DNA from: Bacteroidota bacterium
GTDB lineage: Bacteria; Bacteroidota; Bacteroidia; UBA7662; CANHCV01
Length of the DNA stretch: 64,000 bases
Direction of reading: 5' to 3'
Assembly: GCA_947501265.1 (NCBI GenBank)
Contig: CANMVY010000009.1
Coordinates: 1 to 64,000, forward strand
The notes under the pieces were generated by a model that did no database searches, was not told the DNA's origin, and saw only the letters and a list, made by a program, of their open reading frames with translations. Both the position numbers and the translations under genes were made by a program. Below are positions 5,135-29,499 of this stretch, one piece after another (the stretch's first letter is position 1; the number at the start of each line of letters is the position of its first letter).

Positions 5135-5304
5135 TTGTTTGCTATAATTTTTAGCTGGCAGACAAAAAATCGCCATTTCATCCTAGATGTGCCGATTTTC
5201 GGAAACAACTCGTTGATGTTTAAAAAATACTTTTTCAAACTAGGGATACCCAAGTAAACGGGGGGCATCCAAATTGGAAATTGAGTTTGTAGCAAATGGG
5301 GTTA

Positions 5305-5474
5305 CCCTTCGACTTCGCTCAGGGACCGCCGCCCCCTACCCAAGGGCAATTTAGGGTATTTTTCGGAGTTAGTCGTAAATGAAACGTTTATAAACGTTTC
5401 TATACGGCTCGTAAAAATTATTGCCTTAACTTTACTTCCGGGGAGGGGTTGACGTAGTCCCCGAGTTTGATCGA
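5305..5474. repeat. Composite palindromic element, copy A (REP-flanked inverted repeat)
   Basis: From left to right there is: a REP-like palindrome CCCTTCGACTTCGCTCAGGG (5305-5324); a C-rich box (GCCGCCCCCTACCC); a central perfect 20-bp palindrome GAAACGTTTATAAACGTTTC at 5381-5400 inside a longer imperfect inverted repeat (AGTCGTA...TACGGCT); a G-rich box (GGGGAGGGG, near 5440-5449); and a degenerate REP-like end (CCCCGAGTTTGATCGA, near 5459-5474). Copy B near 28492-28730 shares the same order of blocks and stretches such as TTAACTTTACTTC. No open frame lies inside. It resembles a non-autonomous mobile or structured repeat; mobility itself is not shown. Confidence 0.75.
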
Positions 5475-5737
5475 ATAATGTAAGTTTTTGTAAACTTTAA
5501 GTTTACCCTCTTTGGGCAGTAACTCTATTACTATTGATTGAGAATTTATCTTAGATTTTTCATCGATTCAAGCTCAAATAGTACTACTAATAAGGAATTC
5601 TAGTTTTTAAAAAATTAAGGAGGAAGGAATTAATGGAATCCGTTTTTTTTAGTTTTCAAGTTGGCATAATGATAAATTAAACAAATGTAAATTTGAAAGT
5701 ATTTGATAAATTAGCGTAGTTACCAGGACATTTTTTT

Positions 5738-5745
5738 TATATTTG
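5738..5745 (+). promoter_or_regulatory. -7 promoter element TATATTTG
   Basis: This exact match to TAnnTTTG lies 12 bases before the first ATG of the surface-protein gene. No TTG is found at the expected -33 distance, so it is a candidate only. Confidence 0.5.
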
Positions 5746-5757
5746 CTAAATTAATTG

Positions 5758-7716
5758 ATGTCAATGAAATATCTATTCCTCATTGTTTTGGTTTGCTGTT
5801 ATTGTTGTGGATTTTCGCAGGTTTTAACCCGTGAAGTGGTTAATTCGGCTGGTACTACCCAGTCCAAGGTCGGACTAACACTTATCAATAATATTGGAGA
5901 AACAGTGATTGGTACCAACTCTGCCCAAGGTTTTGGCCTTCGTCAGGGATTTTTGCAACCTAATGAAATTGATTCAATTGATATTTCAATTTTTCATCTT
6001 GGAAATTTGTCGATTTGTCAAGGTGATAGTGTGTTATTATTTACATCTTTTGATCCCAATTATACTTATCAATGGACTTTAAATGGTAATAATATCGGAG
6101 GTGCCTCTGATACCCTTTTCATCGCAAAAATTAGTGGATCTTATCGGGTTGTTGTAACTGATGGTTCCAGAACAACTATTTCTGCAGAAAAAAATGTAAA
6201 GGTTAATCAACTGCCTACAATTCAAATCCAAGCAAATAGAACAAAAGTTTGTTCGGGTGATTCCGTTCAAATTTCCGCAACTGGTGCAAATCAATATTTA
6301 TGGAGCACAGGTGTTTCCAATTCAAATATTTCAATTCGACTTTCAGGGACTTATTCGGTAATAGGAACAGATACCAATGGTTGTTCGTCTACGTCTACCC
6401 CGATTCAAATTGCGGTTTTGTCTCCAATTATTCCTACTGTTAATGCAATTGGGCCAACTTCGGTATGTAATTCTGTCGTAAATCTTCAATCTAGTGCTGC
6501 TAATTCATACAATTGGTCAACAGGATCTACGTCCAATTCAATTAGCGCCAATCGTACTGGGTTTTATTCGGTTTCAACCATCGATTCAAATGGTTGTCGG
6601 GCATCATCTTCCCCAATCAAGGTAAATGTGTTTACAACAGTTCCCGTTCGTCCTGCAGGTATTTTTGGTGATCTTAATCCTTGTGCTTACGTTGGAATTT
6701 CAACAACAGCTACCTATTCTGTGGTTCCAGATTCCAATGCACTCTCCTACATTTGGACAGTAAGTAGTGGAATGACCATAGTTGGGAATAATAATGGAAA
6801 TTCAATCACGGTTTCTTATGCATCTGGATTTACCAAAGGCCAAATTCGGGTAACTCCGTTAAATTCTTGTGGTAATGGACTTTCTTTTACCATTTTTCCA
6901 ACGATTGGACCCATTACAACAGCTCCAATTGTAACCCAATCCATGCCATTTGTTTGTTCAATAATTGGTACAAACACGTCTGCAACATATAGTATTCAAC
7001 CAATCCTTGGTTGTAGTTCTTATTCTTGGATTCTTCCCAAAGATGCAAAATTGGTTTCTGGTCAAGGGACTACTTCCATTCAGGTAATTTATAATTCGAC
7101 TTTTGCTTCAGGAAATATTTCGGTTTTAGGTTTGTCTTCATGTGGAAATTCGCCAACAACCAATATTGGTATTAATTTATTGCCTAAGCCCGTTTTAAAT
7201 GGGTCGAATGTTATTTGCCCCGGAAGTCAAAATATTTATTCAACACCCTTAGTTCAAGGTGCCCTACGTTATCGATTTAATCTGCCACTTGGATTGGCTT
7301 TTGTTAGTAAAAATGGCAATTCTGTTGTTGTAACAAATCTTGGTTCATTTGTATCCGGTACAATAAGTGTTCAAGTTCAAACGGCCCAGTGCGGATGGAC
7401 TCAACCTGGTACGCTTACATTGAGTACAACTCCATGTCGTTCAATGTCTTCTAACCCCAATTTCGCAATTTCAATTTATCCCAATCCAAGTATTGGAAAC
7501 TTTAAATTAGATTTTGGATCGGTCGGTACTCAAATTCAGTTTAGACTTTATTCTTCTGATGGGCGATTGGTGAAACAAAGATTTTTGGGTAGTGTTGAGT
7601 CAGAAACTTTAAATTTTGAGGATTTAGCTAGTGGACTTTATCATATTGAAATTACAGGATTAGATCCAGCCCGTCAAAATTTTCGCCATGTTGAGAAACT
7701 AATGATTGAACGATAA
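5758..7716 (+). CDS. Secreted Ig/PKD-repeat protein with T9SS type A sorting domain
   Basis: Two ATGs are possible (5758 and 5764); both lead into a signal peptide (KYLFLIVLVCCYCCGFSQ). The mature protein starts with a segment found in Bacteroidota adhesin-like proteins (LINNIGETVIGTNSAQGFGLRQGFLQP). It continues with Ig-like repeats containing CxGDSV...YLWSTG...YSV...TDxNGC, then PKD-like modules with conserved cysteines. The last ~80 residues (SIYPNPSIGNFKLDF ... GLYHIEITG ... KLMIER) form a T9SS type A C-terminal sorting domain, which directs export across the outer membrane and cell-surface attachment. The gene is markedly more AT-rich than the housekeeping genes around it. Its exact role is unknown; adhesion or matrix is the likely kind of job. 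Confidence 0.85.
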   Translation: MSMKYLFLIVLVCCYCCGFSQVLTREVVNSAGTTQSKVGLTLINNIGETVIGTNSAQGFGLRQGFLQPNEIDSIDISIFHLGNLSICQGDSVLLFTSFDPNYTYQWTLNGNNIGGASDTLFIAKISGSYRVVVTDGSRTTISAEKNVKVNQLPTIQIQANRTKVCSGDSVQISATGANQYLWSTGVSNSNISIRLSGTYSVIGTDTNGCSSTSTPIQIAVLSPIIPTVNAIGPTSVCNSVVNLQSSAANSYNWSTGSTSNSISANRTGFYSVSTIDSNGCRASSSPIKVNVFTTVPVRPAGIFGDLNPCAYVGISTTATYSVVPDSNALSYIWTVSSGMTIVGNNNGNSITVSYASGFTKGQIRVTPLNSCGNGLSFTIFPTIGPITTAPIVTQSMPFVCSIIGTNTSATYSIQPILGCSSYSWILPKDAKLVSGQGTTSIQVIYNSTFASGNISVLGLSSCGNSPTTNIGINLLPKPVLNGSNVICPGSQNIYSTPLVQGALRYRFNLPLGLAFVSKNGNSVVVTNLGSFVSGTISVQVQTAQCGWTQPGTLTLSTTPCRSMSSNPNFAISIYPNPSIGNFKLDFGSVGTQIQFRLYSSDGRLVKQRFLGSVESETLNFEDLASGLYHIEITGLDPARQNFRHVEKLMIER

Positions 7717-7790
7717 CGTATTGTATTTTTTTTATTGACAATAAATTTCGTAAAATATTGGTTGATTAGGGTTTTAAAAAATGCTTTGAA

Positions 7791-10556
7791 ATGAAAATTA
7801 TTTTTTCTTTTGTGTTAGTATTCTTGGTATTTGCATCAAGTGCTCAATCTAATTTAATTCCTTACCAGGCAATTGCTTTTGGTAATAATGGGAAATCTTT
7901 AAAAAATACTTCCATTGCTGTTCGCCTTACTATTCTCGACGGAAGTCCAACAGGTGCAAACGTGTACCAAGAAACCCATAGTATTGTTACAGATTTTTTT
8001 GGTCATTTTTCGATTAGCATTGGTTCGGGTAATGCCATTTCGGGTGTATACAATCAAATTGGTTGGAACTCAGGCCCCAAATTTATCAAAACAGAAATTG
8101 ATTCTGGGCAAATAGGGAGCTTTGTTCATATCGGAACGAATGAATTGAAGAGTGTTCCCTATTCCATTTACGCCCAATCAGCAAAATCTTCTGAAACAGC
8201 GCTTTATTCCGATTCATCCAACTTTACCGTGAGGGCGGCAAGCTCACTAATATCTACTTCATCACTCCGTTCCGACTCCTCCAATTTTGCCAGTACTGCA
8301 GGAGTTGCGCAAACATCTATAACTGCACGACGTTCGGATTCTTCCATTTTTGCAAATACAGCGGGAATTGCACAAATATCTACTTCATCACTCCGTTCCG
8401 ACTCCTCCACCTTTTCTACAATGTCCCAATCTTGGGTGCGCATGAGCACCACCCAACGCGATGCGCTGACTAACATTCCCGCCGGAACGGTCATTTTCAA
8501 CACCACCACCGGATGTCCGAACTACTACAATGGAAGCACTTGGTTCCAACAATGCGGTTCCTGTTCTCCCGAGCCTTCCCAAGCCAATGCCGGTCCCGAT
8601 GTTCTTAACGCTACCGCCACCTCCATCACCTTGCAAGCCAGTTCTCCAGCTGTGGGTTCTAGTATGTGGACCATTTTGTTCGGAAGTGGTGGAACCCTTA
8701 CCAATTCCAATACGCCTAACGCCACTTTTACTGGAGTTGCAGGAACCATCTACACTTTGCGCTTTACCGTTAGTAACGGTTGCGGAAGTACCTTTGACGA
8801 TATGAACGTGAGCTTTAGCTCGGGTGGCGGTAGCGGATGTTCGCCCCAACCTTCCCAAGCGAATGCCGGCCCAGATGCTTCCAACCTTTGTGGAGCCGCC
8901 ACCCTCAATGCCAACGTTCCAACGGTGGGCACCGGGCAGTGGAGCATCATTTCCGGAAGCGGAGGCAGTTTTGCCAACTCTAGCTCGGCCAGCACCACTT
9001 TTACAGGAACGGCCGGACAAACCTTTGTGCTGCGTTGGACGATTACCAACGCTTGCGGCAGCACCTCCGATGAATTGACGTTGGTGTTTGTTGGCGCTCC
9101 CACCACGGCAAATGCCGGTTTGGACCAAACCAACGTCACCACCCAATTCGCAACGTTGAATGGCAATGCACCCACGGTAGGCAGCGGCCAATGGAACATC
9201 GTTGCTGGAGTGGGAGGTAGCTTGAGTGGAGCTAGGAATCGGAACGCCACATTCACCGGATCACCCACCCAAACGTACACCTTGCGTTGGACGATTACGA
9301 ATGCCTGTGGTACAAGCACATTCGATGATGTTCAAATTCGATTTGGCACCACAGGAGGAACACCCTGTACGCCCCTGCCCACCACAGCGAATGCTGGTCC
9401 CGACAGCGCAGCTTTTTGTCAAGGAAGTTCATTGTATGCAAATGCAGTATCGCCCGGAAGCGGCCAATGGAGTGTAGTTTCAGGAACCAGTTTTTATTTT
9501 TCTGACATTAGCCAGCATAACTCAGCTTTTTACGGAAGTTCGGGCCAAACGTACACCTTACGTTGGACGATTTCCACGCCTTGCGGACAGAGTTCAGACG
9601 AAGTGGTGGTGACCGTGCCTGGAACGGTGAATACCGCAAATGCTGATCCAAACCAAAGTTTTACATATTTAGTGGATTCAGTTTACCCATTAAATGCCAA
9701 TGCTGCCAATGCAGGAAGCGTAGGAACATGGAGTGTGATTTCCGGTTTTGCCGGAACGTTTTCCAATCTCAATGACCCAAATGCAATTTATCGTGGTTCA
9801 AACAATTCTACCTCTACCTTGAAATGGACGATTTCCAATGCTTGTGGATCCCAAACTTTGGATACGGTTCAAATTACATTTCAAGTTTTTATTTTACCAC
9901 CGTCAACGGCATGCAGCGGACAAACCAATTTTAACGATCCCCGAGACGGGCAAGTGTACCCCTTGTTGGGCATTGGCACCCAGTGTTGGATGGCCAAGAA
10001 CATGAACGTAGGAACCATGATTCCTAGTGCGAACGGCGACCAAACCAACAACCAGGTGATAGAGAAATATTGTTACAATAATGATCCAAACATATGCACC
10101 ACCTACGGCGGTTTGTACCAATGGGCGGAAGCGGTGCAATACCAAAACGGCGGAACCAATGTTACGTCACCCAATCCGGCCTTTTCGGGCAACATTCGGG
10201 GGCTTTGTCCTGCGGGTTGGCACTTGCCTGGCGATGCCGAGTGGACGACCTTGGAAAATACTTTAGGGGGATCTAATACCGCGGGAATCGCTCTAAAATC
10301 GACTAATTTGTGGAATTTTTATACAATTCAAACCCAAGGAAACAATGCTAGCGGTTTTAATGCGCTGCCAAGCGGTGTTTTTGATCCCATTGGACCTTTT
10401 TTCTTTGGCCTTGGTAGAAATTCTTACTTCTGGACGTCTTCCGAGTTTTCCAACAACAGTGCAATCAGTCGCAATTTAGAATCTTTCTTTTCAAATATTG
10501 ACGGGAGAAGCATCACTAAGGGCAACGGTTTCTCGGTTCGCTGTTTAAAAGATTAG
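7791..10556 (+). CDS. Surface protein with five tandem Ig-like repeats and C-terminal FISUMP domain
   Basis: The 921-residue protein has a signal peptide (MKIIFSFVLVFLVFASSAQS). Its N-terminal domain (about 20-140) is the one seen before tail-fibre or collagen-like regions in Bacteroidota (YQAIAFGNNGKSL..., SVPYSIYAQSAKSS). Next comes a short low-complexity SDSSNF/STAG repeat zone (about 140-205), then five repeats of roughly 88 residues between about 255 and 705. Each repeat has the frame ANAGPD ... GSGQWS(I/V)xSG ... FTG ... YTLRWTI(S/T)NACG. The C-terminus (about 715-921) is a FISUMP-type domain (QCWMAKNMNVGT ... LCPAGWHLPGDAEWTTLE ... YFWTSSE ... VRCLKD). No T9SS sorting domain is evident. 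The function is unknown; it is probably an exported structural or binding protein. Base composition changes along the gene (AT-rich start, GC-richer middle). Confidence 0.85.
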   Translation: MKIIFSFVLVFLVFASSAQSNLIPYQAIAFGNNGKSLKNTSIAVRLTILDGSPTGANVYQETHSIVTDFFGHFSISIGSGNAISGVYNQIGWNSGPKFIKTEIDSGQIGSFVHIGTNELKSVPYSIYAQSAKSSETALYSDSSNFTVRAASSLISTSSLRSDSSNFASTAGVAQTSITARRSDSSIFANTAGIAQISTSSLRSDSSTFSTMSQSWVRMSTTQRDALTNIPAGTVIFNTTTGCPNYYNGSTWFQQCGSCSPEPSQANAGPDVLNATATSITLQASSPAVGSSMWTILFGSGGTLTNSNTPNATFTGVAGTIYTLRFTVSNGCGSTFDDMNVSFSSGGGSGCSPQPSQANAGPDASNLCGAATLNANVPTVGTGQWSIISGSGGSFANSSSASTTFTGTAGQTFVLRWTITNACGSTSDELTLVFVGAPTTANAGLDQTNVTTQFATLNGNAPTVGSGQWNIVAGVGGSLSGARNRNATFTGSPTQTYTLRWTITNACGTSTFDDVQIRFGTTGGTPCTPLPTTANAGPDSAAFCQGSSLYANAVSPGSGQWSVVSGTSFYFSDISQHNSAFYGSSGQTYTLRWTISTPCGQSSDEVVVTVPGTVNTANADPNQSFTYLVDSVYPLNANAANAGSVGTWSVISGFAGTFSNLNDPNAIYRGSNNSTSTLKWTISNACGSQTLDTVQITFQVFILPPSTACSGQTNFNDPRDGQVYPLLGIGTQCWMAKNMNVGTMIPSANGDQTNNQVIEKYCYNNDPNICTTYGGLYQWAEAVQYQNGGTNVTSPNPAFSGNIRGLCPAGWHLPGDAEWTTLENTLGGSNTAGIALKSTNLWNFYTIQTQGNNASGFNALPSGVFDPIGPFFFGLGRNSYFWTSSEFSNNSAISRNLESFFSNIDGRSITKGNGFSVRCLKD
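8249..8409 (+). repeat. In-frame 35-bp direct repeat pair within the surface-protein gene
   Basis: The same 35 bases, beginning AATATCTACTTCATCACTCC, occur at 8249-8283 and 8375-8409. The offset is 126 bases (42 codons), so both copies are in frame and encode the same ISTSSLRSDSS-type segment. A related, diverged unit lies between them. Recombination between the copies would remove 42 residues without a frameshift. Confidence 0.85.
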
Positions 10557-10754
10557 CCTTCGCATTTTTGCCTGTGTAACCCAATAACGAATGTTTGAAA
10601 AAAAGATCAACTTTTGCTTGGAAAAACCATAGAAATTGAAGGGCGCGAGGGTGGTACCTGAGCTGCTCCCTGAGGTTCTCGAAGGGAGAATGGCGGTGTC
10701 TTCGAGAGCCTCAGACACCGCATCCTCAGGCACCAGGCTTCGTTCTCGAAATCG
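10557..10754. repeat. REP-like palindromes in a convergent intergenic gap
   Basis: Between two convergent genes lie two adjacent palindromes. At 10666-10688 the arms CTCCCT / AGGGAG enclose GAGGTTCTCGA. At 10693-10721 the arms GCGGTGTC / GACACCGC enclose TTCGAGAGCCTCA. Both carry the half-sites CTGAG/CTCAG and TTCGA/TCGAA that also mark the composite elements at 5305 and 28492. The strong hairpins could also end transcription from both sides, although neither has a clear U-run. No open frame of note is present. Confidence 0.75.
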
Positions 10755-13550
10755 TCACAAATACTGTCCCGTGTAACTCTCGGCGCAGCTTTTAATTCCA
10801 GCAGGAACCCCTTGGTAAACCAAATTTCCGCCGGTATCGCCTCCCTCAGCCCCTAAATCAATCAGCCAATCCGCGCAGCGGATCACGTCAACGTTGTGTT
10901 CAATGATGATCACCGTATTGCCCAAGTCGATCAACGCTTGGATGGATTTCATCAGTTTTTGAATGTCGTGAAAATGCAAGCCCGTGGTCGGTTCGTCGAA
11001 AATAAACAACATGTTTTCGGCCCCGTTGCCTTTGATCAGGTAGTAGGCGAGCTTGATGCGCTGGGCTTCTCCTCCCGAAAGCGTGCTGCTCGATTGTCCC
11101 AATTGAACGTACCCCAAGCCTACATCTTGCAAGGGTTTTAAACGGGTCATGAGCGATTTTTCTTCAGCGAAAAATTCAACGGCTTCATCAATGGTCATTT
11201 CCAACACGTCGGAAATGGATTTTCCCCGATGTTGAATGTCTAAAACTTCTTGCTTGAATCTTTTTCCGTGGCATTCATCGCACTCCACGGTGATGTCCGC
11301 CAAGAATTGCATTTCAATGGTTACTTTTCCATCTCCTTGGCAGGTTTCGCACCGGCCGCCCTCAACGTTGAAGCTGAAGTGCTTGGGTTTGTACCCCCGG
11401 GCTACCGCCAACGGCTCATCTGAAAACAAATTACGGATGGCGTCGTAAGCTTTGGTGTAGGTCACCGGATTGCTTCGGCTGCTTTTCCCAATGGGGTTTT
11501 GGTCGATCATCTCCACATCGGTAATGCGTTTGTAATCGCCCCCCAATTTGCGGAATTTTCCAGTCGCATCCGCTCCACCGCCCAGCATCTTTTTCAAGGC
11601 TGGATAAAGTATCTTTTTGATTAAGGTGGTTTTTCCCGATCCTGAGACTCCGGTAACCACCGTTAATGCGTGAAGTGGAAACTCCACATCAATGTTTTTT
11701 AGGTTGTGTTCGTTGGCACCTTCCAACAAAATGCTGCGGTTCCATTCCCGCGGTTTAACCGGGAAATCGATGGATCTTTCTCCACGAAGGTATTCTCCCG
11801 TTAAGGTTTTTGCTTTCTTTACCAAATCAGCATACGTGCCTTCAAACACCAATTGGCCACCCATGGTTCCCGCTTCGGGACCAATGTCCACAATTCGATC
11901 GGCCGCTTCCATCACCAATTGTTCGTGTTCCACCACCACAACCGTATTTCCTTTGTCGCGAAGATTTTTGAGGACCTGAATCAATCGATGGGTATCTCTG
12001 GGGTGAAGTCCAATGCTGGGTTCGTCCAAAATGTACAAGCTGCCCACCAGGTTAGAACCCAGGGACGTGGCCAAACGAATGCGTTGGCTTTCGCCTCCAG
12101 AAAGCGTGTTGGCCGCCCGATTCAACGTTAAATATCCCAGGCCTACATCGCTTAAAAAGTGCAATCGCTGCTGAATTTCTTGCAGCAATCGGTCGGCTAT
12201 GGCCTTGTCGCTTTCCCCAAAAACGATTTGTTGGAAGTAGGATTTCAACGAATCGATGGGCAATAACACCAAATCTTTGATGGACTTTCGGTCGCCCGTT
12301 TCGGCATCCCACAATTGAACGTAGTGCGCATCTCCTCGTAAACGGGTTCCATGGCATTCCGGACAAACTGTTCGACCGCGGTAGCGACTCAACATCACCC
12401 GGTATTGAATTTTGTAGGATGCTTCTTCCAAGAATTTGAAAAATCCGCGAATACCTGGGAAAAATCGGTTTCCTTCCCACAGCTCTTGCTTTTCAGAATC
12501 GGAAAGTTCGTTGTATGGACGATGAATTGGGAAAACCCAATGTTTGGTCGATTGGATGAATCGATCCAACCATTCTTTCATGACTTCGCCTTTCCATGGA
12601 GCGATCGCTCCTTCAAAGAGCGATTTATTAGGATCGGGGACGACCAAATTTTCGTCAATGCCAATGATGGATCCAAACCCTTCGCAGGATTTACAGGCTC
12701 CAAATGGATTTCCAAACGTAAATAAATTAACCGATGGTTCTTCGAATGCCATTCCGTCCCGCTCGAATCGGTGGTTGAAGGTGTAGTCCACACCGTCGAT
12801 TCGAAGCACCAAGTCGCCGTGTCCTTCCTCAAACCCCAACGAAATGGAATCCATGGCACGTCCGGAAAAATCATCTTCTTTCAGCTGATTGGTGAATCGA
12901 TCGACCAAAATGAAGATTCCTTCCAACGAATTTGGTAGGTTTCCGGAATCCAGTAACTCTTGGATATCAGCATTGCCTTCTTCCGTTTTTATTCTGCTGA
13001 AACCTTTTTGTTGAAGCATTTCGAACAAGAACCGAATTTCTTTTCCAGGAATTGGAACGAGGGGAGCCAAAACTTCTACTCGAGCACCGTTGGGTTGTGA
13101 TTCTAAAAACTGAAAAACCGAATCAACGGTATCTTTTTTGACCTCTTCACCAGTAATGGGCGAAAAAGTATGTCCGGCACGGGCAAAGAGCAATTTCAAA
13201 TAATCGTACACTTCGGTAACGGTTCCAACGGTTGAGCGTGGATGTCCGAAAGTAACTTTTTGTTCGATGGCCATGGCCGGGGCTAAACCTTTGATGGAAT
13301 CCACCTCGGGTTTTTTCATGCGCTCCAAAAACTGGCGGGCATAGGAAGATAGGGATTCTACGTATCTTCTTTGACCTTCGGCATACAAGGTATCGAACAC
13401 CAAGGAAGATTTTCCCGAGCCTGAAACTCCCGTTACAACGACCATTTCTCCGCGAGGAATGGCTAAATCGATGTTTTTTAAGTTATGAAGGCGTGCGCCT
13501 TTGATAAGGATGTAATCTTTGGGCGATAGCCCATCGATGGAATTCTGCAT
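10755..13550 (-). CDS. uvrA: Excinuclease ABC subunit A
   Basis: The 931-residue protein has both UvrA ATPase halves: Walker A motifs GVSGSGKSSL (N-terminal) and GVSGSGKTTL, and signature motifs LSGGESQRIRLA and LSGGEAQRIKLA. It has the zinc modules CKSCEGFG ... VCPECHGTRLR and CETCQGDG ... CDECHGKRF, and Walker B segments LYILDEPSIGLH and LFIFDEPTTGLH. UvrA recognises DNA damage with UvrB in nucleotide excision repair. The segment before NPRSTVGT differs from the best-known form: this protein reads KVTFGHPRSTVGTVTE. Length is normal. The gene follows a methyltransferase gene by 7 bases, so the two are probably cotranscribed from the response-regulator promoter near 14790. Confidence 0.97.
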   Translation of the reverse strand: MQNSIDGLSPKDYILIKGARLHNLKNIDLAIPRGEMVVVTGVSGSGKSSLVFDTLYAEGQRRYVESLSSYARQFLERMKKPEVDSIKGLAPAMAIEQKVTFGHPRSTVGTVTEVYDYLKLLFARAGHTFSPITGEEVKKDTVDSVFQFLESQPNGARVEVLAPLVPIPGKEIRFLFEMLQQKGFSRIKTEEGNADIQELLDSGNLPNSLEGIFILVDRFTNQLKEDDFSGRAMDSISLGFEEGHGDLVLRIDGVDYTFNHRFERDGMAFEEPSVNLFTFGNPFGACKSCEGFGSIIGIDENLVVPDPNKSLFEGAIAPWKGEVMKEWLDRFIQSTKHWVFPIHRPYNELSDSEKQELWEGNRFFPGIRGFFKFLEEASYKIQYRVMLSRYRGRTVCPECHGTRLRGDAHYVQLWDAETGDRKSIKDLVLLPIDSLKSYFQQIVFGESDKAIADRLLQEIQQRLHFLSDVGLGYLTLNRAANTLSGGESQRIRLATSLGSNLVGSLYILDEPSIGLHPRDTHRLIQVLKNLRDKGNTVVVVEHEQLVMEAADRIVDIGPEAGTMGGQLVFEGTYADLVKKAKTLTGEYLRGERSIDFPVKPREWNRSILLEGANEHNLKNIDVEFPLHALTVVTGVSGSGKTTLIKKILYPALKKMLGGGADATGKFRKLGGDYKRITDVEMIDQNPIGKSSRSNPVTYTKAYDAIRNLFSDEPLAVARGYKPKHFSFNVEGGRCETCQGDGKVTIEMQFLADITVECDECHGKRFKQEVLDIQHRGKSISDVLEMTIDEAVEFFAEEKSLMTRLKPLQDVGLGYVQLGQSSSTLSGGEAQRIKLAYYLIKGNGAENMLFIFDEPTTGLHFHDIQKLMKSIQALIDLGNTVIIIEHNVDVIRCADWLIDLGAEGGDTGGNLVYQGVPAGIKSCAESYTGQYL

Positions 13551-13557: not shown

Positions 13558-14319
13558 TTATTTGGTGCAGATGGCGAAATAATCGAGAGCTTGATCTTGA
13601 ATGGGCGCGATGAAATAATCGGTCCAAACGATGTCGTTCACCAATCCGGTTGACTGTTTGGATAACATTCGGCGATTCATTCGGTTTGCGATGTCGTAAG
13701 GAATTTGCAATAATCTACGAGGTAGGCGGTACTGCAAATTGAAAATATCGAATCGGGTAAATTTCTGAACTCCGGCTTTGTTTTTTTGGTAATAATCCAT
13801 CACTTTTTCATTTCCAAAAACGCCTTGAAGGTCGTAGGTTGAAAATGCTTTTTCGATGTGTTTCGCCATTTCAATCGGGGTGTATTCCCGCACGTGCCAC
13901 GGATTTCGAGAGAGCGACATCAAACGATTGGGTGTGGTGAAGATGAGGGTTCCTCCGGGTTTGAGCACGCGGAAAATTTCTTTCAAAAAGGTTACATCAT
14001 CTTCAATGTGTTCAATCACTTGGAAAGAAACGACGAAATCGAAGGAATTGTCGGTAAAATCGGGCAAAAACGGTACGCTCATTTGAATGAATTTCGCATT
14101 GCCCGGAAGGTTGCTCACTTCCGTTTGAAATTTGTCGATGGCCGTGTACGATTCGCAATTGGGTGCCAACATGGGAATGCCGTAGCCTTCCCCGCAACCA
14201 ATTTCTAATACGTTTCCAGAAATGCGTTTGGCCGCTTCGTGGTAAGCAATGAGATGGCGTTGGAAAATAGGGTTTTCAGAATGATCGGTTCGGGTAGTGC
14301 GCTCGGCCGTGTGAAACAT
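13558..14319 (-). CDS. Class I SAM-dependent methyltransferase
   Basis: The 253-residue protein carries the class I SAM-binding motif EIGCGEGYGI (about 41-50), an acidic residue after the second strand (YTAIDKF), and the later motifs FDFVVSFQVIEHIEDD and LKPGGTLIFTTPN, which are characteristic of the Methyltransf_11/UbiE-like group. The substrate cannot be predicted. Typical genes of this type act on small molecules, lipids, glycans or quinones. It lies between a response-regulator gene (6-base gap) and uvrA (7-base gap), so it is very likely part of the same transcript; the functional link to either is not obvious. Confidence 0.85.
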   Translation of the reverse strand: MFHTAERTTRTDHSENPIFQRHLIAYHEAAKRISGNVLEIGCGEGYGIPMLAPNCESYTAIDKFQTEVSNLPGNAKFIQMSVPFLPDFTDNSFDFVVSFQVIEHIEDDVTFLKEIFRVLKPGGTLIFTTPNRLMSLSRNPWHVREYTPIEMAKHIEKAFSTYDLQGVFGNEKVMDYYQKNKAGVQKFTRFDIFNLQYRLPRRLLQIPYDIANRMNRRMLSKQSTGLVNDIVWTDYFIAPIQDQALDYFAICTK

Positions 14320-14325
14320 GATGAA

Positions 14326-14757
14326 TTAGAGGGTTAGTCCGTCCAAGGTTTTGATGCTTAGAGGTTTGTTGACGTATTTATTAACGTATTTGTTCTTTTC
14401 AGCCCGGTCCATATCTTTTGGATTGATGGAAGATGAAACCATTACTACACGGGTTTTTTCTTTGATCACATCCGCATTGGGGCCGTTCAAATTTTCGAAT
14501 TCTTCTAAAAATTGAAAGCCATCCAAAATGGGCATATTGATGTCCAAAAAGATTAATTCAGGAATATTATCGGTAGAAATGCCGTTTAAACGAACCAAGT
14601 TTTTGAGAAAATCCAACGCGGAAACCGCACCGGAAAAAGTATAAATATGCTCAGCGAAGCTGGACGCTTCAATCATTTTTTGATTGATAAGGTTGTCGAT
14701 GGGACTGTCATCAACCAGCATCAGTGATTTGTAGCGGAACGATTTTGGTGTTGCCAT
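14326..14757 (-). CDS. Single-domain response regulator (CheY-like receiver)
   Basis: The 143-residue protein is a stand-alone receiver domain. The acidic pair D16-D17 (MLVDDSP), the phosphoacceptor D72 in LIFLDINMPILDG, the Ser/Thr region VVMVSSSINPKD and the conserved Lys in YVNKPLS are all present. There is no output domain. Such proteins act through protein contacts or as phosphorelay intermediates, often with hybrid kinases not encoded next to them. It is the first gene of a probable unit with the methyltransferase and uvrA. A promoter candidate with both -33 and -7 elements lies just upstream (14782-14812). Confidence 0.92.
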   Translation of the reverse strand: MATPKSFRYKSLMLVDDSPIDNLINQKMIEASSFAEHIYTFSGAVSALDFLKNLVRLNGISTDNIPELIFLDINMPILDGFQFLEEFENLNGPNADVIKEKTRVVMVSSSINPKDMDRAEKNKYVNKYVNKPLSIKTLDGLTL

Positions 14758-14781
14758 ATTTTTTTCAGGTTGGAGGGTTCA

Positions 14782-14812
14782 CAATGATAACAGTTTTTTT
14801 CGAAATTTTCAA
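14782..14812 (-). promoter_or_regulatory. Promoter candidate for the response-regulator/methyltransferase/uvrA unit
   Basis: On the minus strand a TTG (14812-14810) is followed after 20 bases by TATCATTG (14789-14782), one mismatch from the Bacteroidota -7 consensus TAnnTTTG. The spacing matches the usual -33/-7 arrangement. Confidence 0.55.
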
Positions 14813-16329
14813 CCCTGTTTTTCGGGCTTCATTTGGGGGAAAAACAAGACTTCTTGGATGGAAGCTTGGTTGGTGAGGAACATGCACAAACGATCCATTC
14901 CAATGCCCAAGCCCGATGTGGGAGGCATGCCGTATTCCAACGCCCGCAAGAAATCTTGGTCGATGAACATCGCTTCATCGTCTCCCCGCTCCTGCAACGT
15001 CAGTTGCTCCTCGAAACGTTCGCGCTGATCGATGGGGTCGTTCAACTCGGAATAGGCGTTGGCCACTTCTTTCCCGCAAATCATCAATTCGAAACGTTCG
15101 GTGTAAGCCGGATTTTCGCGGTGAACTTTGGTTAAGGGCGACATTTCTTTGGGATAGTCGATGATGAACGTGGGTTGGATGTAATTTCCTTCGCACTTGT
15201 CTCCAAAAATCGCATCGATCAATTTGCCTTTGCCCATGCTGTTGTCCACTTCAATGCCCATGCTTTTGCAAGCAGCACGCAATTCCTCTTCGGACTTTTC
15301 ATCGATATCGAAACCGGTGAAATCCAAGATCGATTGGCGCATGGTAATGCGCGGAAAAGGGGCTTGGAAATTGATTTGATGCGCACCAAACGTGGCTTCT
15401 GTTGTTCCATTTACGGCAAGTGCGCAATGCTCCAAACACTTTTCCGTAAACTCCATCATCCAGTTGTAATCTTTGTAGGCCACGTAAATTTCCATTCCCG
15501 TGAATTCTGGATTGTGGGTTCGGTCCATTCCTTCGTTTCTGAAGTTTTTGGAAAATTCGTACACCCCATCGAAACCGCCAACGATTAACCTTTTGAGGTA
15601 CAATTCATTGGCAATACGCAAATACAAAGGAATGTCCAAAGCGTTGTGGTGGGTCATGAACGGACGAGCCGTTGCTCCACCGGGGATGGATTGAAGCACC
15701 GGCGTTTCTACTTCCATGTAACCGAATTGGTTGAAGTATTCGCGCATGGCGTTGAACAGCTTGGTGCGTTTGATGAAAATGTCTTTCACTTGGGGATTCA
15801 CCACCAAATCCACGTACCGCTGACGGTAACGCAATTCGGGATCGGTGAACGCATCGAAAACGTTTCCTTGTTCGTCGGTTTTAGGAAAGGGGAGGGGTTT
15901 TAAGCTTTTAGAAAGGAAGAAGAATTCCCGTACGTGAACAGAAATTTCTCCAACTTGGGTGCGAAAAACGTAGCCTTTGATGCCAATGAAATCGCCCAAA
16001 TCGCACCATTTTTTGAATAGATCGTTGTAAATGGTTTTGTCTTCTCCCGGACAAATTTCTTCCCGGTTGATGTAGATTTGAATGCGGCCAGCGCTATCTT
16101 GAAGTTCGGCAAAGGCCGCTTTTCCCATGATTCTGCGCGACATCATTCGACCCGCGAGCGACACTTCTGCCCATTGGTCTTTGGCTTCATCAACAAAATT
16201 CGATTTGATATCAGTAGAGAAGTGGGTAACGTTGAAGGCGGCTGCGGGGTAGGGTTCGATTCCGTTTTCACGCAAGGTTTGCAGCGTTTGCCGGCGTACT
16301 AGTTCTTGTTCGCTTAAATGATGTTCCAT
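14809..16329 (-). CDS. lysS: Lysyl-tRNA synthetase, class II
   Basis: This is a 506-residue class II lysyl-tRNA synthetase: an N-terminal OB-fold anticodon-binding domain ([23 protein letters not shown]...), then the catalytic core with motif 2 ([23 protein letters not shown]) and motif 3 ([15 protein letters not shown]), ending in [10 protein letters not shown]. The open frame starts six codons earlier, but the ATG at 16329 gives the standard start [13 protein letters not shown] and avoids overlap with the upstream flavin-reductase gene, which ends 4 bases before it. The enzyme charges tRNA-Lys in the cytoplasm. Confidence 0.97.
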
Positions 16330-16333
16330 GGAC

Positions 16334-17194
16334 TTAGTGGTAAGCAAGTAGGAGCGCTGCGGCTTGAGCTACTTGATGGTTTTCGATCAGTTTTTTCGCT
16401 AATTGATGAACTTCCGAAATGCTGGTTTCGGGAGTGATTTTTTCTTTTTGAAGGTCGATTTCAGACGAATTCGGAGGAGTTTCTAAACTTCCTAATTTCC
16501 CTAAATCGTTTCCGGTAAGAACTTCACTGTGCAATACCGTTTGAGGAAAAAAATCTACGCCAATTCCAATGCTCGAAATTGGTTTAGGAAGTTCGAACAG
16601 CCCTTCCTTGGCTCGACCGTACCAATCTCCGCCGAGGCGAGAAACGGGATCGAGTTTGAAAGGATCGATCAATCCTTTTTCATTGAGCAATTCTTCCTTG
16701 ATGTGGGTTTTGAGGACTTCGCACAAAACGAGGTTTCCGGCTCCACCGTTAGGCCCCGTTTCAATCACCTGCAAAACTTTGCATTCCATTTGAACGGGGG
16801 CTTCAGCCACGCGAAAGGGAGCTACCAGGTCGGAGGGAAGCATGGTAAATCCGGCTTTGGTGAATTCATTCACTCCTTTCGGGTAATCCGAACTGGAAAG
16901 TGAGGTTTGTTCTACCATGGCATAATTCACCATGTTAATCACCACTTCGGCCACTTCTTTCACGTTCTCGTAGGTGTGCTTAACCGTATTATCGCGCCCT
17001 CTTCTTGCTGGGGAAAAAATCAACAAAGGCGGATTCGCTCCAAAAATATTGAAGAAGCTGAATGGACTAAGATTTGGATTTCCATCGGCATCAATGGTGG
17101 AAGCAAAACAAATGGGTCGCGGTACAACGGCACTCATCAACAATTGATGCAGTTTTGGGGTAGGAAGATCCTGACTTAAAACGGAATGATACAT
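16334..17194 (-). CDS. Flavin reductase family protein (FMN-binding split barrel)
   Basis: The start at 17194 is preferred over the longer frame. It gives [33 protein letters not shown], the typical opening of the flavin-reductase/FMN-binding split-barrel family, and it follows a perfect TACCTTTG -7 motif. The core contains [22 protein letters not shown] and [12 protein letters not shown], which contact FMN and the phosphate in known members, then [11 protein letters not shown] and a LGGDWYGR segment. The C-terminal ~70 residues (PPNSSEIDL...) form a helical tail. The substrate is unknown; family members reduce flavins or act as FMN-dependent oxidoreductases. The gene sits 4 bases before lysS and is likely cotranscribed with it. 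Confidence 0.88.
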
Positions 17195-17201
17195 GTTCCT
17201 G

Positions 17202-17209
17202 CAAAGGTA
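17202..17209 (-). promoter_or_regulatory. -7 promoter element TACCTTTG for the flavin reductase-lysS pair
   Basis: A perfect TAnnTTTG match on the minus strand ends 7 bases before the ATG at 17194. No strong TTG is visible at -33. Confidence 0.6.
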
Positions 17210-17343
17210 CGAAATAGGATTGGGAGTTGAAGGTGAGATTCCGATGGATTTGACGCGATAAATCAAGAAATTTTGCTTCAAAACAAATGGAGATGCAACA
17301 TTTTCAGAAAAATTAGCTCTATATTCACAACGCCAAAAAAATC

Positions 17344-20292
17344 ATGATGAAACGCAGTTTATTAATCCTTTTGGGATTCAGCAGTATGGTCGCTTTTGCT
17401 CAAGAGAAAAAAGTGAAAAATGCCGATGAAATGGTACTAGAACAAACCAATCAGGAGGCGCTAAACAAGTTGCAAAGAGACTTTCACTCGCAATGGGAAA
17501 AAGATCAGAGCGCAGTTCAAAAATTCGCCAAAAAACACAGCATTCCCGTAGTTCAAGAATTGCCTAACGGCGGTGTTCTTCTATTACGTCGCATTGATGC
17601 AAACGGTCATCCGGTTTATGTTCAAACGGACAATGCTACGGCTGCGCGGACCATCAGTACCAATAAAGTGATTCCAACCGGCATTTCGGGATTGGATTTG
17701 GATGGATCTGGGGTTCGAATGGGCGAATGGGACGGGGGCGGAGTTCGCTCTACTCACCGTGAATTCGCACCTGCATCAGGTACCGGTTCTAGAACAACCC
17801 AAATCGATAACGTAACTACAACCAATCAACATGCTACCCACGTTGCAGGAACCATTCTCGCAAAAGGGGTTGACGTATCAGCCAAGGGAATGGCCATTAA
17901 TGGACGTCTTCGTTGCTTTGATTTCAATAATGATAACTCCGAAATGACTTCCGAAGCAAGTCAGGGCATGTTGCTCTCCAATCACAGTTACGGAATTCCC
18001 GGTGGTTGGTCCTTCAACGGATCTTGGTTTTGGTACGGTAATCCAACCATTTCTGCCGTTGAAGACTACAGTTTTGGTTTGTACGATGCCGAAGCACGCG
18101 ATTGGGACAATATTGCATTCAATGCTCCTTATTATTTGATGGTAAAATCGGCCGGTAACAACCGAAATGAATCTTGGAATGGAACCCACCAAGTTCAGGT
18201 TAATGGAAACTGGACTACTTCTACTGCTCGTAGAAATAGCGACGGAACGTACGATAACATGACCGGATCTGCGAATTCGAAAAATATTTTGGTGGTTGGT
18301 TCGGTTCAAGATTTAACCAATGGTTGGACAGCACCTTCCTTGGTTCGAATTAGCACCTTTAGCTCTACGGGCCCAACCGACGATGGTCGCATCAAGCCAG
18401 ATATTACGGCCAATGGAGATGACCTTCGTTCATGCAATAACACTTCAGATCAAGCTTATACCGTCATGGGAGGAACGTCCATGTCGGCCCCCAACGCAAC
18501 GGGATCAATAGCTTTGCTTCAACAACTTAGCCGTCGTAAATACGGACGTTGGATGCGAAGTGCTACAGCAAAAGCGGTGATCATCCATTCGGCCGACGAG
18601 GCTGGAACTTCCGATGGTCCTGATTATACCTTCGGTTGGGGATTGATGAATACTTACGAAGCCGCGAGAATCCTTGCCGATTCTTCCAATCGTAATCCCA
18701 TTTTAGAAAAAGCATTGATCAATAAAGATACCTTTAGCATTCGCGTGTATTCCAACGGGACTGAATCGTTGGAAGCTACCTTGGCTTGGACCGATGTTGC
18801 GGGAACCGCTTCCCCAGCAGCTCTCAATGCAAGGACCATCAAATTGGTGAATGACCTTGATCTTCGCATCATTGACTCTCTTGGAAATGCTACTTTACCT
18901 TATGTGTTGGATGTGAATAACCGAACTGCAGCTGCCACCCGAGGCGATAATATTCGCGATAACGTTGAAAAGGTTATTTTGAATACGCCCAATGCCGGAT
19001 GGTACACCATTCGAGTAACGCACAAGGGGAACTTGGCTCAAAATTTCCAACGTTTCTCGTTGGTGATGACCGGTGCAGCAAATCCTCCCGTTGCACGTGT
19101 TTCCGTTTCTAATAAAACCGTTTGTGTTGGAACCGTTGTTCGCTTTAACGATCTTTCCACCACTACCGCTCACAGTGTTTCATGGTCTTTCCCAGGTGGA
19201 ACACCGTCTACTTCAACCTTGGTAAACCCAACGGTGATCTATACCACTCCTGGTGTTTATCGGGTTTCTATGACCATTTCAGATTCATTGAATACCTACA
19301 CTTTTGTGGATTCGAATTTTATTACGGTGGTTAACTCTCCTCGCATTGATACCTTGCTAAAAACTCCAAATAATTGCAACGGAAACGGTTCAATTTTGGC
19401 ACAAGTTTCCGGTGGATATACGCCTTATCGTTACACTTGGGGACCTGGAATCTTTTCCGATTCCACGGCCATCATTGGATTGCGTGCCGGTTTGTACACG
19501 CTTTTGGTAACCGATTCTAACGGATGTTCAACAACCGCTAATGCGACTCTTGCAGATAATGGACCTATTGCGGTTGCATCAGCTACAACTTCCATCAATT
19601 GCTACGGTGGAAACAATGGTGTTGCCACGGCTACTGTAACTGGCGGAACGGCTCCGTTCGGTTATTCTTGGCAAACCAACCCGCCACAGTCTGGAGCTGT
19701 GCTTCCAAATCTGGCTGCAGGAACGTACCGAGTTCGAGTAACCGATGCTCAAGGTTGTACTTCCGATACCAGCATTACCCTTACTCAACCCGATTCTTTC
19801 ACGGTTATTCAATTCTCGAATCCCAATACCGGTGGTGGAAATGGTTCGGCTGGAGTATCTGTTTTTGGTGCTACTCCTCCCTACACGTACTTGTGGAATA
19901 CCACGCCTCCTCAAACGTCCAACGCTGCCTTCAATTTATTCGGTGGTCCGGTTCAAGTTACCGTAACCGATGCAAAGGGCTGTGTTAGAAACGTAAGCAT
20001 TCAGGTTTCTGGTGCTGGACTTGGAGCAGTAGATTACGCTCTCCCCGTTTTCCAAATGTTCCCATCTCCTTCCGAAGGATTGGTGATGATGTATTTCGAA
20101 AATCAATCCAACGAAAATGCGCAATTGAACATCACTTCCATCGATGGTAAAAAAGTTGCTGGATTTGATTTCGGAAATCAAAGCATTTTGTCAAGAGAAT
20201 TGAATCTTTCTCATTTGGCCAATGGGGTATATTTTGCAACATTGAGCACGAAAAAAGCAGAAAAGAAAGTTCGTTTCGTGATTCAACATTAA
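17344..20292 (+). CDS. Secreted subtilisin-like (S8) serine protease with PKD and SprB-type repeats and T9SS sorting domain
   Basis: The 982-residue protein has a signal peptide (KRSLLILLGFSSMVAFAQ) and a short pro-region, then an S8 catalytic domain with the full triad: D130 in GEWDGG, H163 in HATHVAG, and S379 in GGTSMSAP, plus N272 as the oxyanion residue (SAGNN). A beta-sandwich follows, then a PKD domain (about 580-665, VSWSFPGGTPSTS...YRVSMTISD). Next come three SprB-type repeats (GGYTPYRYTWGPG...GLYTLLVTDSNGC; GGTAPFGYSWQTNPPQS; FGATPPYTYLWNTTPPQTS). The end (MFPSPSEGLVMMYFENQ...ANGVYFATLSTKKAEKKVRFVI) is a T9SS type A sorting domain. It is predicted to be exported and bound to or released from the cell surface. 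A hairpin terminator lies 20 bases after the stop codon. Confidence 0.93.
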   Translation: MMKRSLLILLGFSSMVAFAQEKKVKNADEMVLEQTNQEALNKLQRDFHSQWEKDQSAVQKFAKKHSIPVVQELPNGGVLLLRRIDANGHPVYVQTDNATAARTISTNKVIPTGISGLDLDGSGVRMGEWDGGGVRSTHREFAPASGTGSRTTQIDNVTTTNQHATHVAGTILAKGVDVSAKGMAINGRLRCFDFNNDNSEMTSEASQGMLLSNHSYGIPGGWSFNGSWFWYGNPTISAVEDYSFGLYDAEARDWDNIAFNAPYYLMVKSAGNNRNESWNGTHQVQVNGNWTTSTARRNSDGTYDNMTGSANSKNILVVGSVQDLTNGWTAPSLVRISTFSSTGPTDDGRIKPDITANGDDLRSCNNTSDQAYTVMGGTSMSAPNATGSIALLQQLSRRKYGRWMRSATAKAVIIHSADEAGTSDGPDYTFGWGLMNTYEAARILADSSNRNPILEKALINKDTFSIRVYSNGTESLEATLAWTDVAGTASPAALNARTIKLVNDLDLRIIDSLGNATLPYVLDVNNRTAAATRGDNIRDNVEKVILNTPNAGWYTIRVTHKGNLAQNFQRFSLVMTGAANPPVARVSVSNKTVCVGTVVRFNDLSTTTAHSVSWSFPGGTPSTSTLVNPTVIYTTPGVYRVSMTISDSLNTYTFVDSNFITVVNSPRIDTLLKTPNNCNGNGSILAQVSGGYTPYRYTWGPGIFSDSTAIIGLRAGLYTLLVTDSNGCSTTANATLADNGPIAVASATTSINCYGGNNGVATATVTGGTAPFGYSWQTNPPQSGAVLPNLAAGTYRVRVTDAQGCTSDTSITLTQPDSFTVIQFSNPNTGGGNGSAGVSVFGATPPYTYLWNTTPPQTSNAAFNLFGGPVQVTVTDAKGCVRNVSIQVSGAGLGAVDYALPVFQMFPSPSEGLVMMYFENQSNENAQLNITSIDGKKVAGFDFGNQSILSRELNLSHLANGVYFATLSTKKAEKKVRFVIQH

Positions 20293-20304
20293 TTGAACTT
20301 CCCC

Positions 20305-21087
20305 ATGTTTCACATCCCGATTTTTCCCGTCATTGGAATCATCGGGATGTTTTTTTTGATGGGATGCCAATCAACATATCCAACCCTAACTTTTGCAGCT
20401 CACCTTTACGATGAAACCGATTCCATCAATGGTCCTGTCCCCCATTTTTTGCAAGCCGTAGAATACCAACAAGCTGATATTCTGCTTTGGGGTGGCGATG
20501 TGTCCGATTTTGGGGCACTAGCCCCTTCGGCCTGGGTTAGTTTAGAAAAAAAATGGACCGGAAAATCGTTCATCGCTTACGGGAATCACGATTTAGCAAC
20601 GCCAGAGGAATACAACCAAAAACGGATTGATTCGCTTCCTCCGTTTCAGTTTTATGAATTGTCTGACTCGGTGAAGTTGGTCGTTTTTCAAACGGTCGGA
20701 AAATCAAACTTCACCATCGATTCGGCTGTTTTTAATGCAGAAATGTCGGCCTTTCCCGTCCAAATTCTCATCATGCATCACCCATTGTTTTGGGATGGAC
20801 GAGATTCCTTTTGGAAACCTAATGCAGAAGCGGGTGAAGAAATGTATCAAATGAATCCAAATCAGAATTTCCGCTCAACTTGGCTCCCTTTGCTTCAACA
20901 AGAGGCCAAAAGCGGAAAGCAAATTTGGTGTTTGGCCGGCGATTTTGGGAAATTTCAAACCCAGCAACACCAAATTCAAAATGGAATACATTTTTTAGGA
21001 GTTGGCGGAAACGGTGAAAAAGTGGATTTTTTACTCCTGAAGCCAATGAAAAACAGGTATTCATATCAGATTATTTCTCACCCATGA
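20305..21087 (+). CDS. Metallophosphoesterase-like lipoprotein
   Basis: The ATG at 20305 gives a lipoprotein signal (IPIFPVIGIIGMFFLMGC with Cys at residue 21). The next ATG at 20347 would leave too short a signal. The mature part matches the calcineurin-like phosphoesterase motifs in order: an altered first motif (FAAHLYDE, where D-x-H would be expected), GGDVSD, GNHD, and later MHHP. A final GxH-type motif is weaker (AGDFGKFQ). It could be a phosphodiesterase or phosphatase anchored in the outer or inner membrane; the altered first motif leaves activity uncertain. Its stop overlaps the next start (ATGA, 21084-21087), which couples it to the CotH-like gene. Confidence 0.72.
   Translation: MFHIPIFPVIGIIGMFFLMGCQSTYPTLTFAAHLYDETDSINGPVPHFLQAVEYQQADILLWGGDVSDFGALAPSAWVSLEKKWTGKSFIAYGNHDLATPEEYNQKRIDSLPPFQFYELSDSVKLVVFQTVGKSNFTIDSAVFNAEMSAFPVQILIMHHPLFWDGRDSFWKPNAEAGEEMYQMNPNQNFRSTWLPLLQQEAKSGKQIWCLAGDFGKFQTQQHQIQNGIHFLGVGGNGEKVDFLLLKPMKNRYSYQIISHP
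20313..20357 (+). terminator. Terminator-like hairpin inside the start region of the phosphoesterase gene
   Basis: CATCCCGAT (20313-20321) pairs with ATCGGGATG (20341-20349) around a 19-base loop, followed directly by eight T residues. It is placed where a terminator for the upstream protease gene would be, yet it lies within the first 18 codons of the lipoprotein gene. Confidence 0.75.
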
Positions 21088-23822: not shown

Positions 23823-24715
23823 AACGGATATTTTTGTTTTCCATTCTTCTCTTTTTAGGCGTAAAGAAAACCTTCGCTCAACTTCCAACCCAAGAAATTT
23901 ACTGGAATTCCCGCATGCCGTGGTTCACCATGATTCATTTTAATCCGGCGTATTCGGGCGTAAATCACGATAATCTTTTATTGGGTTACCGCAAGCAATT
24001 CGTCAATACACCCGGAATGCTTTCCTGGAGTCTGCAGGGCGCGTATGATGTGACCAAAAACAAGAGCAACGATGTTGGTGGAACCATTAAAATCAATCAG
24101 GAAGGGAATAATACCCAAGTTTTGTTGAGGGGAGTTTATGGGTATCGTTTGGATGCTTCCGATTTTTCGTTAGGGTTGGGCGTGGCTCCATCGGTTCAAC
24201 TTTTGAGCCTTTCGGCAGGAATCAATTCCGAAACCCGAAGCAGTTCCGATCTCGATGCCGGACTTTGGTTCCGAACCAAAAATGTTCATGTCGGCGCAGC
24301 CGTTCAAAACCTTTTTCAGCCCATCATCGCTTTTAAACGATTGGGCAATTATGCTACGGCACGTTCCATCAATGCCAATGTGGGTTGGACTTCCAGCATG
24401 TCGGGCGGTTGGAAAAATAAATCTGAGGTGTTTTACCGCATCTGCAATCGAAGTTATGGCATTCAATTCGCCACTCGATTTGAATACTTGGATAAATTTC
24501 AATTCGGATTGGCGTACCGCATGTTTCAATACAAGGGCATGTTAACCGTTATTCCCTACGGATTAAATCCGATTTCCATCATGACCGGTTTCGATCTTGG
24601 AAATCAAATCCAGTTGCGTGCTTCCTACGATTTCCCGGTGAGAACGGGAACGATGGGTGGAAATTTGGAGTTCGGATTGAATATCAAATTGAAGGATTAC
24701 AAGGATGGCTATTGA
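23819..24715 (+). CDS. PorP/SprF-family type IX secretion outer-membrane protein
   Basis: The 298-residue protein has a signal peptide (KRIFLFSILLFLGVKKTFAQ) and the family opening TMIHFNPAYSGVNHDNLLLGYRKQFVNTPG, followed by alternating hydrophobic strands that predict a beta-barrel (FSLGLGVAPSVQLL, FQFGLAYRMFQ, IQLRASYDFPV), ending in LEFGLNIKLK. PorP/SprF proteins serve particular T9SS cargo proteins, often encoded nearby, and help attach them at the surface. Here the gene directly follows the CotH-like/beta-helix gene with an ATGA overlap, so that protein or the subtilase upstream may be the client. It overlaps the next gene by 11 bases. Confidence 0.9.
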   Translation: MKRIFLFSILLFLGVKKTFAQLPTQEIYWNSRMPWFTMIHFNPAYSGVNHDNLLLGYRKQFVNTPGMLSWSLQGAYDVTKNKSNDVGGTIKINQEGNNTQVLLRGVYGYRLDASDFSLGLGVAPSVQLLSLSAGINSETRSSSDLDAGLWFRTKNVHVGAAVQNLFQPIIAFKRLGNYATARSINANVGWTSSMSGGWKNKSEVFYRICNRSYGIQFATRFEYLDKFQFGLAYRMFQYKGMLTVIPYGLNPISIMTGFDLGNQIQLRASYDFPVRTGTMGGNLEFGLNIKLKDYKDGY

Positions 24716-26536: not shown

Positions 26537-26823
26537 ATCGCGATCAATTGAAATTTGGAGTAGCCTTGGGCATTTTATTTCCCTCCATCTTATTTGTCCT
26601 AATTTTCTTAGCGATGAGCGGTGGATCTCAACTTCCCGACGCTTGGAATGCGATGGTGAATGAGAAGATTTTAATGAAGGTTATTGCCCTCTGTTGCGTC
26701 ATTAACTTGGTGTTATTTTACTACTTCTTGAATCGAAGTTTTTATGAAAGTACGAGAGGCGTAATTGTTGGAACCTTGGTTTATGGAATCATTGGAGCGA
26801 TTTTGATCTTTTCTGCGGGATGA
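26533..26823 (+). CDS. Small membrane protein, unknown function
   Basis: This 96-residue protein starts at the ATG that overlaps the surE stop (ATGA). It has three predicted membrane helices (about 9-27, 47-63 and 75-95) separated by short polar loops. I do not recognise the family. It lies between surE and lpxB with ATGA overlaps on both sides, so it is probably expressed with them; a link to envelope lipid metabolism is only suggested by position. Confidence 0.75.
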   Translation: MNRDQLKFGVALGILFPSILFVLIFLAMSGGSQLPDAWNAMVNEKILMKVIALCCVINLVLFYYFLNRSFYESTRGVIVGTLVYGIIGAILIFSAG

Positions 26824-29498: not shown

Positions 29499-29499
29499 A

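Follow-up and report, generated by a model that had tools for sequence, protein, structure and literature searches.

What does the patchy codon composition of a predicted surface protein gene say about how the gene came to be? The question is raised by an ORF at positions 7791-10556 (+ strand) of the window, by which we mean the whole analysed stretch of 64,000 nucleotides from a Bacteroidota bacterium. The ORF is intact and encodes a fibre-like FISUMP protein of 921 aa. According to the original prediction, the gene is a mosaic with an AT-rich beginning, a GC-richer middle of five repeats and a 35-bp direct repeat at the junction, and it would have been assembled by repeat exchange or recombination. 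Sliding windows of 40 codons gave GC3 values of 0.17-0.38 for 7791-8390, of 0.40-0.70 for 8391-9290 (12 of the 14 windows at 0.5 or above), of 0.28-0.53 for 9411-9890 and of 0.57-0.70 for 9891-10250, with 0.30-0.50 at the 3' end of the ORF. A formal segmentation divided the ORF into three parts (7791-8390, GC3 0.27; 8391-9305, 0.56; 9306-10553, 0.42) at a modest gain in likelihood of 7.2 after penalty. A finer split into five segments (GC3 0.27, 0.56, 0.34, 0.59 and 0.38) separates adjacent segments with |z| values of 3.0 to 5.9 by amino-acid-stratified odds ratios; these values are optimistic because the split was picked by eye and its significance tested afterwards. When synonymous codons were permuted with the protein and the codon set held fixed, the gene came second in GC3 heterogeneity (z 7.9) in a set of 104 ORFs, running from ATG to stop and 300 aa or longer, from 264 kb of its own genome (G000). 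The mosaic therefore persists after control for amino acids, and the AT-rich first ~600 bases were recovered as a segment of their own. The GC-rich middle holds for PKD-like repeats 1-3 but not for repeats 4 and 5, which are part of an AT-richer region. The AT-rich stretch continues upstream of the ORF into the neighbouring gene at 5758-7716, whose GC3 of 0.21 is the lowest among the 27 window ORFs listed.

The layout of the protein is given in Table 1. Five PKD-like repeats, N-terminal to the FISUMP domain, are visible in the DNA. The FISUMP domain itself (residues 714-921) scores far above the curated cut-offs of both families that define these proteins (PF09603, 113.1 against 33.9 bits; TIGR02145, 136.8 against 41.65 bits). 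The N-terminal domain scores 29 bits with NF053851, below the curated cut-off of 60, and by this cut-off falls outside the mosaic adhesive trimer (MAT) family; all 14 family N-domains compared, taken from 41 found, match this profile at E <=0.01. No Por_Secre_tail was detected in the window protein at E values up to 1, so that it is not classed as T9SS cargo. In the structural models the N-domain is a beta-sandwich whose pLDDT stays mostly above 77 up to about model residue 100, the repeat stalk stays below 50 in the monomer model, and the FISUMP domain is modelled with confidence (mean pLDDT 89.2). The best structural neighbour of the FISUMP model is the Yersinia adhesin InvE (Z 8.3), the only one with a Z of at least 8. 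Further down come the C-terminal domain of Legionella Lcl (Z 7.5), the MAT tip Bd2740 of Bdellovibrio (Z 7.2) and, with Z values of 5.4-7.2, a large number of lectin-type chains. Judged by their titles, about 40 of the 50 listed neighbours are of this lectin type. These models make a C-type-lectin-like fold of the tip probable; we grade it no higher because a Foldseek search with the FISUMP model returned nothing at E <=0.001. When the N-part model was used for a fold search, no hit reached E <=0.001; no solved relatives were found by sequence for the FISUMP alignment (E 0.01) or the N-domain alignment (E 0.1), and the best match of a PHROGs search had an E value of 0.073.

Table 1 Features of the FISUMP gene and its surroundings (positions in the window)
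Feature	Position	Strand	Basis or remark
Variable island, different content in both sister species	5137..10757		homology borders
Adjacent gene for a secreted protein with three PKD-like stretches and T9SS sorting tail	5755..7716	+	Pfam PKD_6, Por_Secre_tail
Putative signal peptide, preceding 7845	7791..7844	+	hydrophobic start, by inspection
N-terminal domain, beta-sandwich similar to the MAT N-domain, low GC3	7845..8190	+	NF053851 E 7.9e-7, confident beta strands
Stalk, 21-residue repeats, four SDSS units	8208..8414	+	
35-bp exact repeat, copy 1	8249..8283	+	exact match search
35-bp exact repeat, copy 2	8375..8409	+	contains GC3 step 8390/8391
Collar block, strongly conserved	8439..8528	+	97% aa, 93% nt vs closest homologue
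PKD-like repeats 1-3, mostly GC3-rich	8583..9344	+	Pfam K319L-like_PKD, three stretches
Position equivalent to the recombination junction of two G002 paralog pairs	9221..9222		max chi-square
PKD-like repeats 4-5, GC3-poor	9387..9881	+	DNA repeats, GC3
FISUMP domain, conserved half, GC3-rich	9972..10160	+	
FISUMP domain, hypervariable half (tip)	10161..10520	+	
uvrA-type gene (by eye), borders the island on the right	10755..13550	-	97% aa in G002

GC3 patchiness is a trait of the whole family. Three genomes of one genus were compared, the own genome G000 and those of two sister species, G001 and G002, which hold 5, 10 and 26 FISUMP matches, respectively; of these 41 matches, 40 were used after G000:C6 was skipped, and 39 entered the alignment, from which G002:C71 was also omitted. 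Of 27 family ORFs, each 300 codons or longer, taken from stop to stop in the three genomes and in part cut by contig ends, 18 were GC3-mosaic at p<0.01 and nine were not, against 6 of 103 background ORFs (Mann-Whitney 7e-12). The background ORFs were all from G000, where two of three family ORFs passed the same threshold.

Sharp junctions are found between paralogs of G002. The maximum chi-square method places the break of two pairs, C41a/C41b and C30a/C41b, at the equivalent of 9221/9222, where nucleotide identity falls from 93% to 53-55%. In the pair C41a/C30a identity is 94% as far as 10161, drops to 59% and is back at 94% from 10523 onwards. Such falls from 93-94% to 53-59% at single points far exceed permutation. 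Segmentation placed GC3 steps in C30a (0.66 to 0.30) and C41a (0.67 to 0.30), which correspond to about 9228 and 9198 of the window as read from the alignment, and left C41b uniform at 0.60. Near 9221 composition step and identity cliff thus coincide in these sister-species paralogs. The cliff at 10161 is accompanied by no segmentation step, just by lower GC3 in 30-codon windows. Codon identity at positions with the same amino acid drops together with protein identity, from 343/407 to 64/156 in C41b/C30a and from 409/464 to 19/35 in C41a/C30a; a drop at p<0.05 was seen in four of seven FISUMP pairs, and none in C26/C32. Boundary and similarity drop in these sister genes suggest that a likely binding tip was swapped rather than slowly mutated.

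A similar picture emerges across species. Between species, G000 C5 and G001 C206 are the closest pair. Of their 13 windows preceding the tip, 12 show 81-95% nucleotide identity and one shows 55%; over the four windows of the tip the identity falls to 13-37% at the amino acid level, and the last 30 bp match again. GC3 in these four windows is 0.05-0.24 in G001 C206 and 0.08-0.60 in G000 C5. The DNA downstream of the two genes is unmatched and the G001 ORF ends at a contig end, so the pair is not established as orthologous or as lying at the same locus. In 40 FISUMP domains taken together, GC3 is 0.48 in the conserved half and 0.35 in the variable block (amino-acid-stratified odds ratio 2.0; z 12.8, a value that is inflated because the sequences are related), the first half being GC3-richer in 30 domains and not so in 10. 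In 33 of the 40 the two halves have different nearest neighbours, those of the variable block being weak on account of its strong divergence. The tip cliff is absent from six pairs of two other genera of the order, for which eight ORFs were extracted and L019 and L035 left out of the comparison; their tips are conserved and have no low-GC3 block, except that two of three g5 genes drop to GC3 0.21-0.37 over the last 14 to 42 codons. Two g6 control pairs diverge right at the beginning of the ORF. A non-fibre FISUMP pair of the genus has identities of 0.89/0.89/0.94 and no tip cliff either. Two further ORFs of about 1090 codons, L052 and L059 (G002:C37 and G001:C260), each carry three tandem FISUMP domains as single ORFs and thus occur in both sister species.

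With moderate confidence we read these data as the record of a modular, fibre-like adhesin that was assembled by recombination among family members and carries an exchangeable hypervariable tip. The protein would be secreted and would consist of a signal peptide, a beta-sandwich base, a stalk of 21-residue repeats, a collar, five PKD-like spacers and the FISUMP tip. The patchy codon composition would mark modules of differing histories, presumably joined by recombination between family members within the conserved blocks, that is the collar, the PKD-like repeats and the conserved FISUMP half. Exchange of the outer FISUMP half would then alter ligand specificity.

A possible but unlikely alternative does without any exchange: in one ancestral gene, the outer parts would have diverged fast under diversifying selection and drifted to AT-rich codons, the constrained parts keeping theirs. 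The window gene and its closest homologue, C41b, can indeed be aligned throughout except for the stalk, and synonymous identity is not lower in the tip, neither between these two (222/408 vs 35/63) nor between G000 C5 and G001 C206 (38/56 vs 24/37). In 11 copies with a GC-rich first half and a GC-poor tip, the nearest tip belongs to a GC-richer copy in eight cases and to a uniformly GC-poor one in a single case, so that the uniformly low-GC3 paralogs were rejected as tip donors. However, gradual divergence hardly accounts for cliffs between paralogs that are 93-94% identical elsewhere, at which synonymous identity drops too. In addition, GC3 climbs in the family from 0.36 to 0.58 as identity to the best paralog of the same genome increases (638 windows of the 27 family ORFs; within-gene Spearman 0.43, reached by none of 2000 circular shifts), whereas for ordinary genes, 21 of 25 of which had a covered orthologue and were used, the link between conservation and GC3 is weak (within-gene r 0.13), identity being measured there against the G002 orthologue. 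A general effect of conservation on GC3 was therefore rejected.

The same rise of GC3 with paralog identity fits the prediction of GC-biased gene conversion, for which gene GC content in relation to signs of recombination has been put forward as an argument in bacteria, according to the available text of PMC4450053. Blocks that pair with sister copies would have become GC-rich and partnerless tip cassettes would have stayed AT-rich. We consider this reading distinctly doubtful, because it is G002 that accounts for the trend (r 0.54), which is weak in G000 (0.23, p 0.055) and G001 (0.11, p 0.22). Furthermore, the GC3-rich body of the window gene has no other match in its own genome among the 40 of 83 candidates scored, and the conserved FISUMP half of one G000 copy reaches a GC3 of 0.72 although G000 has only five FISUMP matches. 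The same pattern would arise if the GC-rich bodies formed a lineage of foreign origin. If conversion were nevertheless at work, single genes of this family would be natural experiments on GC-biased gene conversion in bacteria.

Misjoining of contigs among near-identical paralogs is improbable as the source of the junctions. G002 is apparently a MAG and several of its copies lie at contig ends, but its ORFs remain open across the junctions, the identical break occurs on two contigs, and a similar cliff separates G000 and G001. Translational codon selection on conserved domains is very improbable. Conserved blocks do show higher GC3, but low GC3 appears to be the optimal direction for translation: 20 of 22 listed ORFs, which we take by eye to be the ribosomal-protein region and fusA, lie at or below 0.40 and the others at 0.47 and 0.55, with a mean of 0.43 over 104 ORFs, and selection for GC3-rich blocks was rejected on these grounds. 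Least probable of all is a diversity-generating retroelement (DGR) acting on the FISUMP tip: although Fib_succ_major is among the known DGR target domains and FISUMP is on record as such a target in some gut communities (available text of PMC4159848), the variable block is ~360 bp long with length changes, and the absence of an RVT_1 match, and thus of a detectable reverse transcriptase, from all three genus genomes (two of which are drafts, with 100 and 290 contigs; the search was positive in 3 of 14 control genomes) makes a DGR unlikely.

We return to recombination among family members and to the window gene itself, for which the case is weaker than for its relatives. Against C41b, maximum chi-square analysis found breaks at 8133 (51 to 71%) and at 10272 (73 to 61%), and these do not match the GC3 steps at 8390 and 9305. 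Replacement of modules is for this reason probable for the window gene, and the predicted assembly by recombination is well supported for the relatives, with their cliffs and the GC3 step near 9221. The gene joins a low-GC3 N-part and stalk to a body that is most like C41b. Codon identity at same amino acids is 23/28 in the collar and 199/380 in 8529-10160 (Fisher p 0.0026), and it is lower in the N-part than in the body (31/78 vs 222/408, p 0.019). No donor was found among the compared sequences: a tree of 41 rows has no strongly supported group that holds the window N-domain, which sits on a long branch with G002 N-domains as nearest relatives at 51-53%. The long branch and the missing donor leave room for fast divergence of the N-part.

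The 35-bp direct repeat is exact and lies at the composition junction, as had been claimed. Its two copies are the sole matches within the 64-kb window (none in 100 shuffles); they belong to a tandem array of 63-bp (21-codon) units at 8268-8409 and are separated by two units (126 bp). The repeat is a homogenised piece of the stalk repeat, and its supposed role as agent of exchange was not borne out. The predicted variation in length was seen among the three genes that carry the stalk repeat, with four SDSS units in the window gene, two in C41b and five in C30a; the spacing of the units is 21 in the window gene versus 27 and 30 in the paralogs.

The site in which the gene sits is occupied by other DNA in the sister species. 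In G002, the collinear homology breaks off at 5132 and restarts at 10757; these flanks fall on two separate G002 contigs, so that the island content of G002 is partly known. There, a further FISUMP gene of 554 aa lies next to the uvrA-type gene, and the contig end carries an IS110 transposase domain. In G001 homology ends at 5137 and is followed by an integrase-core ORF near the contig end; a right border was searched for in G001 and not found. G002 is collinear with the window across most of 14001-34000 and 40001-60000, two further stretches that were tested. The closest homologues of the window gene sit elsewhere in G002, near genes that read, by eye, like pgk and dnaA. Inside the island lies also the neighbouring low-GC3 gene (Table 1).

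Multi-copy, variable FISUMP complements have a precedent in 'Ca. Ornithobacterium hominis', with up to 17 genes, a quarter of them with Ig-like folds (PMC6421346). The window protein resembles these proteins in its C-terminal domain; the available text of that report holds no counterpart to the cassette-like hypervariable half with a low-GC3 signature, which we find here in one genus. A close functional parallel may be drawn to the MAT fibres of Bdellovibrio, which exchange their C-terminal tips, one of them with a C-type lectin fold (accessible part of PMC10769870). Related N-domain, fibre-like layout and tip exchange are alike in both, and the window protein differs in its sub-cut-off N-domain and in its repeats and PKD-like spacers; its surface display, trimer formation and ligand binding are inferred. 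DGR variable proteins with C-type-lectin-like domains vary the same domain class at the protein C-terminus, as far as PMC4159848 is accessible; variation in the present genus is block-wise. A literature search returned nothing that joins Bacteroidetes, intragenic recombination and lectins, or Flavobacteriales and domain shuffling. Our results point to an adhesin family whose exchangeable part may be readable from codon composition, apparently without a retroelement.

Some minor observations concern the remaining sequence. The most GC3-heterogeneous background ORF, L049:386-3631 (1081 aa), changes from 0.40 to 0.22 at codon 730 and is a second mosaic candidate; it presumably encodes a restriction-modification enzyme, judged by eye. 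Intergenic repeat modules at 5291-5480 and 10648-10720 flank the island on both sides and recur at 28562-28729; they are interspersed in many copies in all three genus genomes. These modules were present in 10 of 30 FISUMP loci and in 2 of 10 background stretches, an excess that is suggestive only because the stretches were not length-matched. The sole Rfam match in the window at gathering thresholds is a class A RNase P RNA at 52775-53152.
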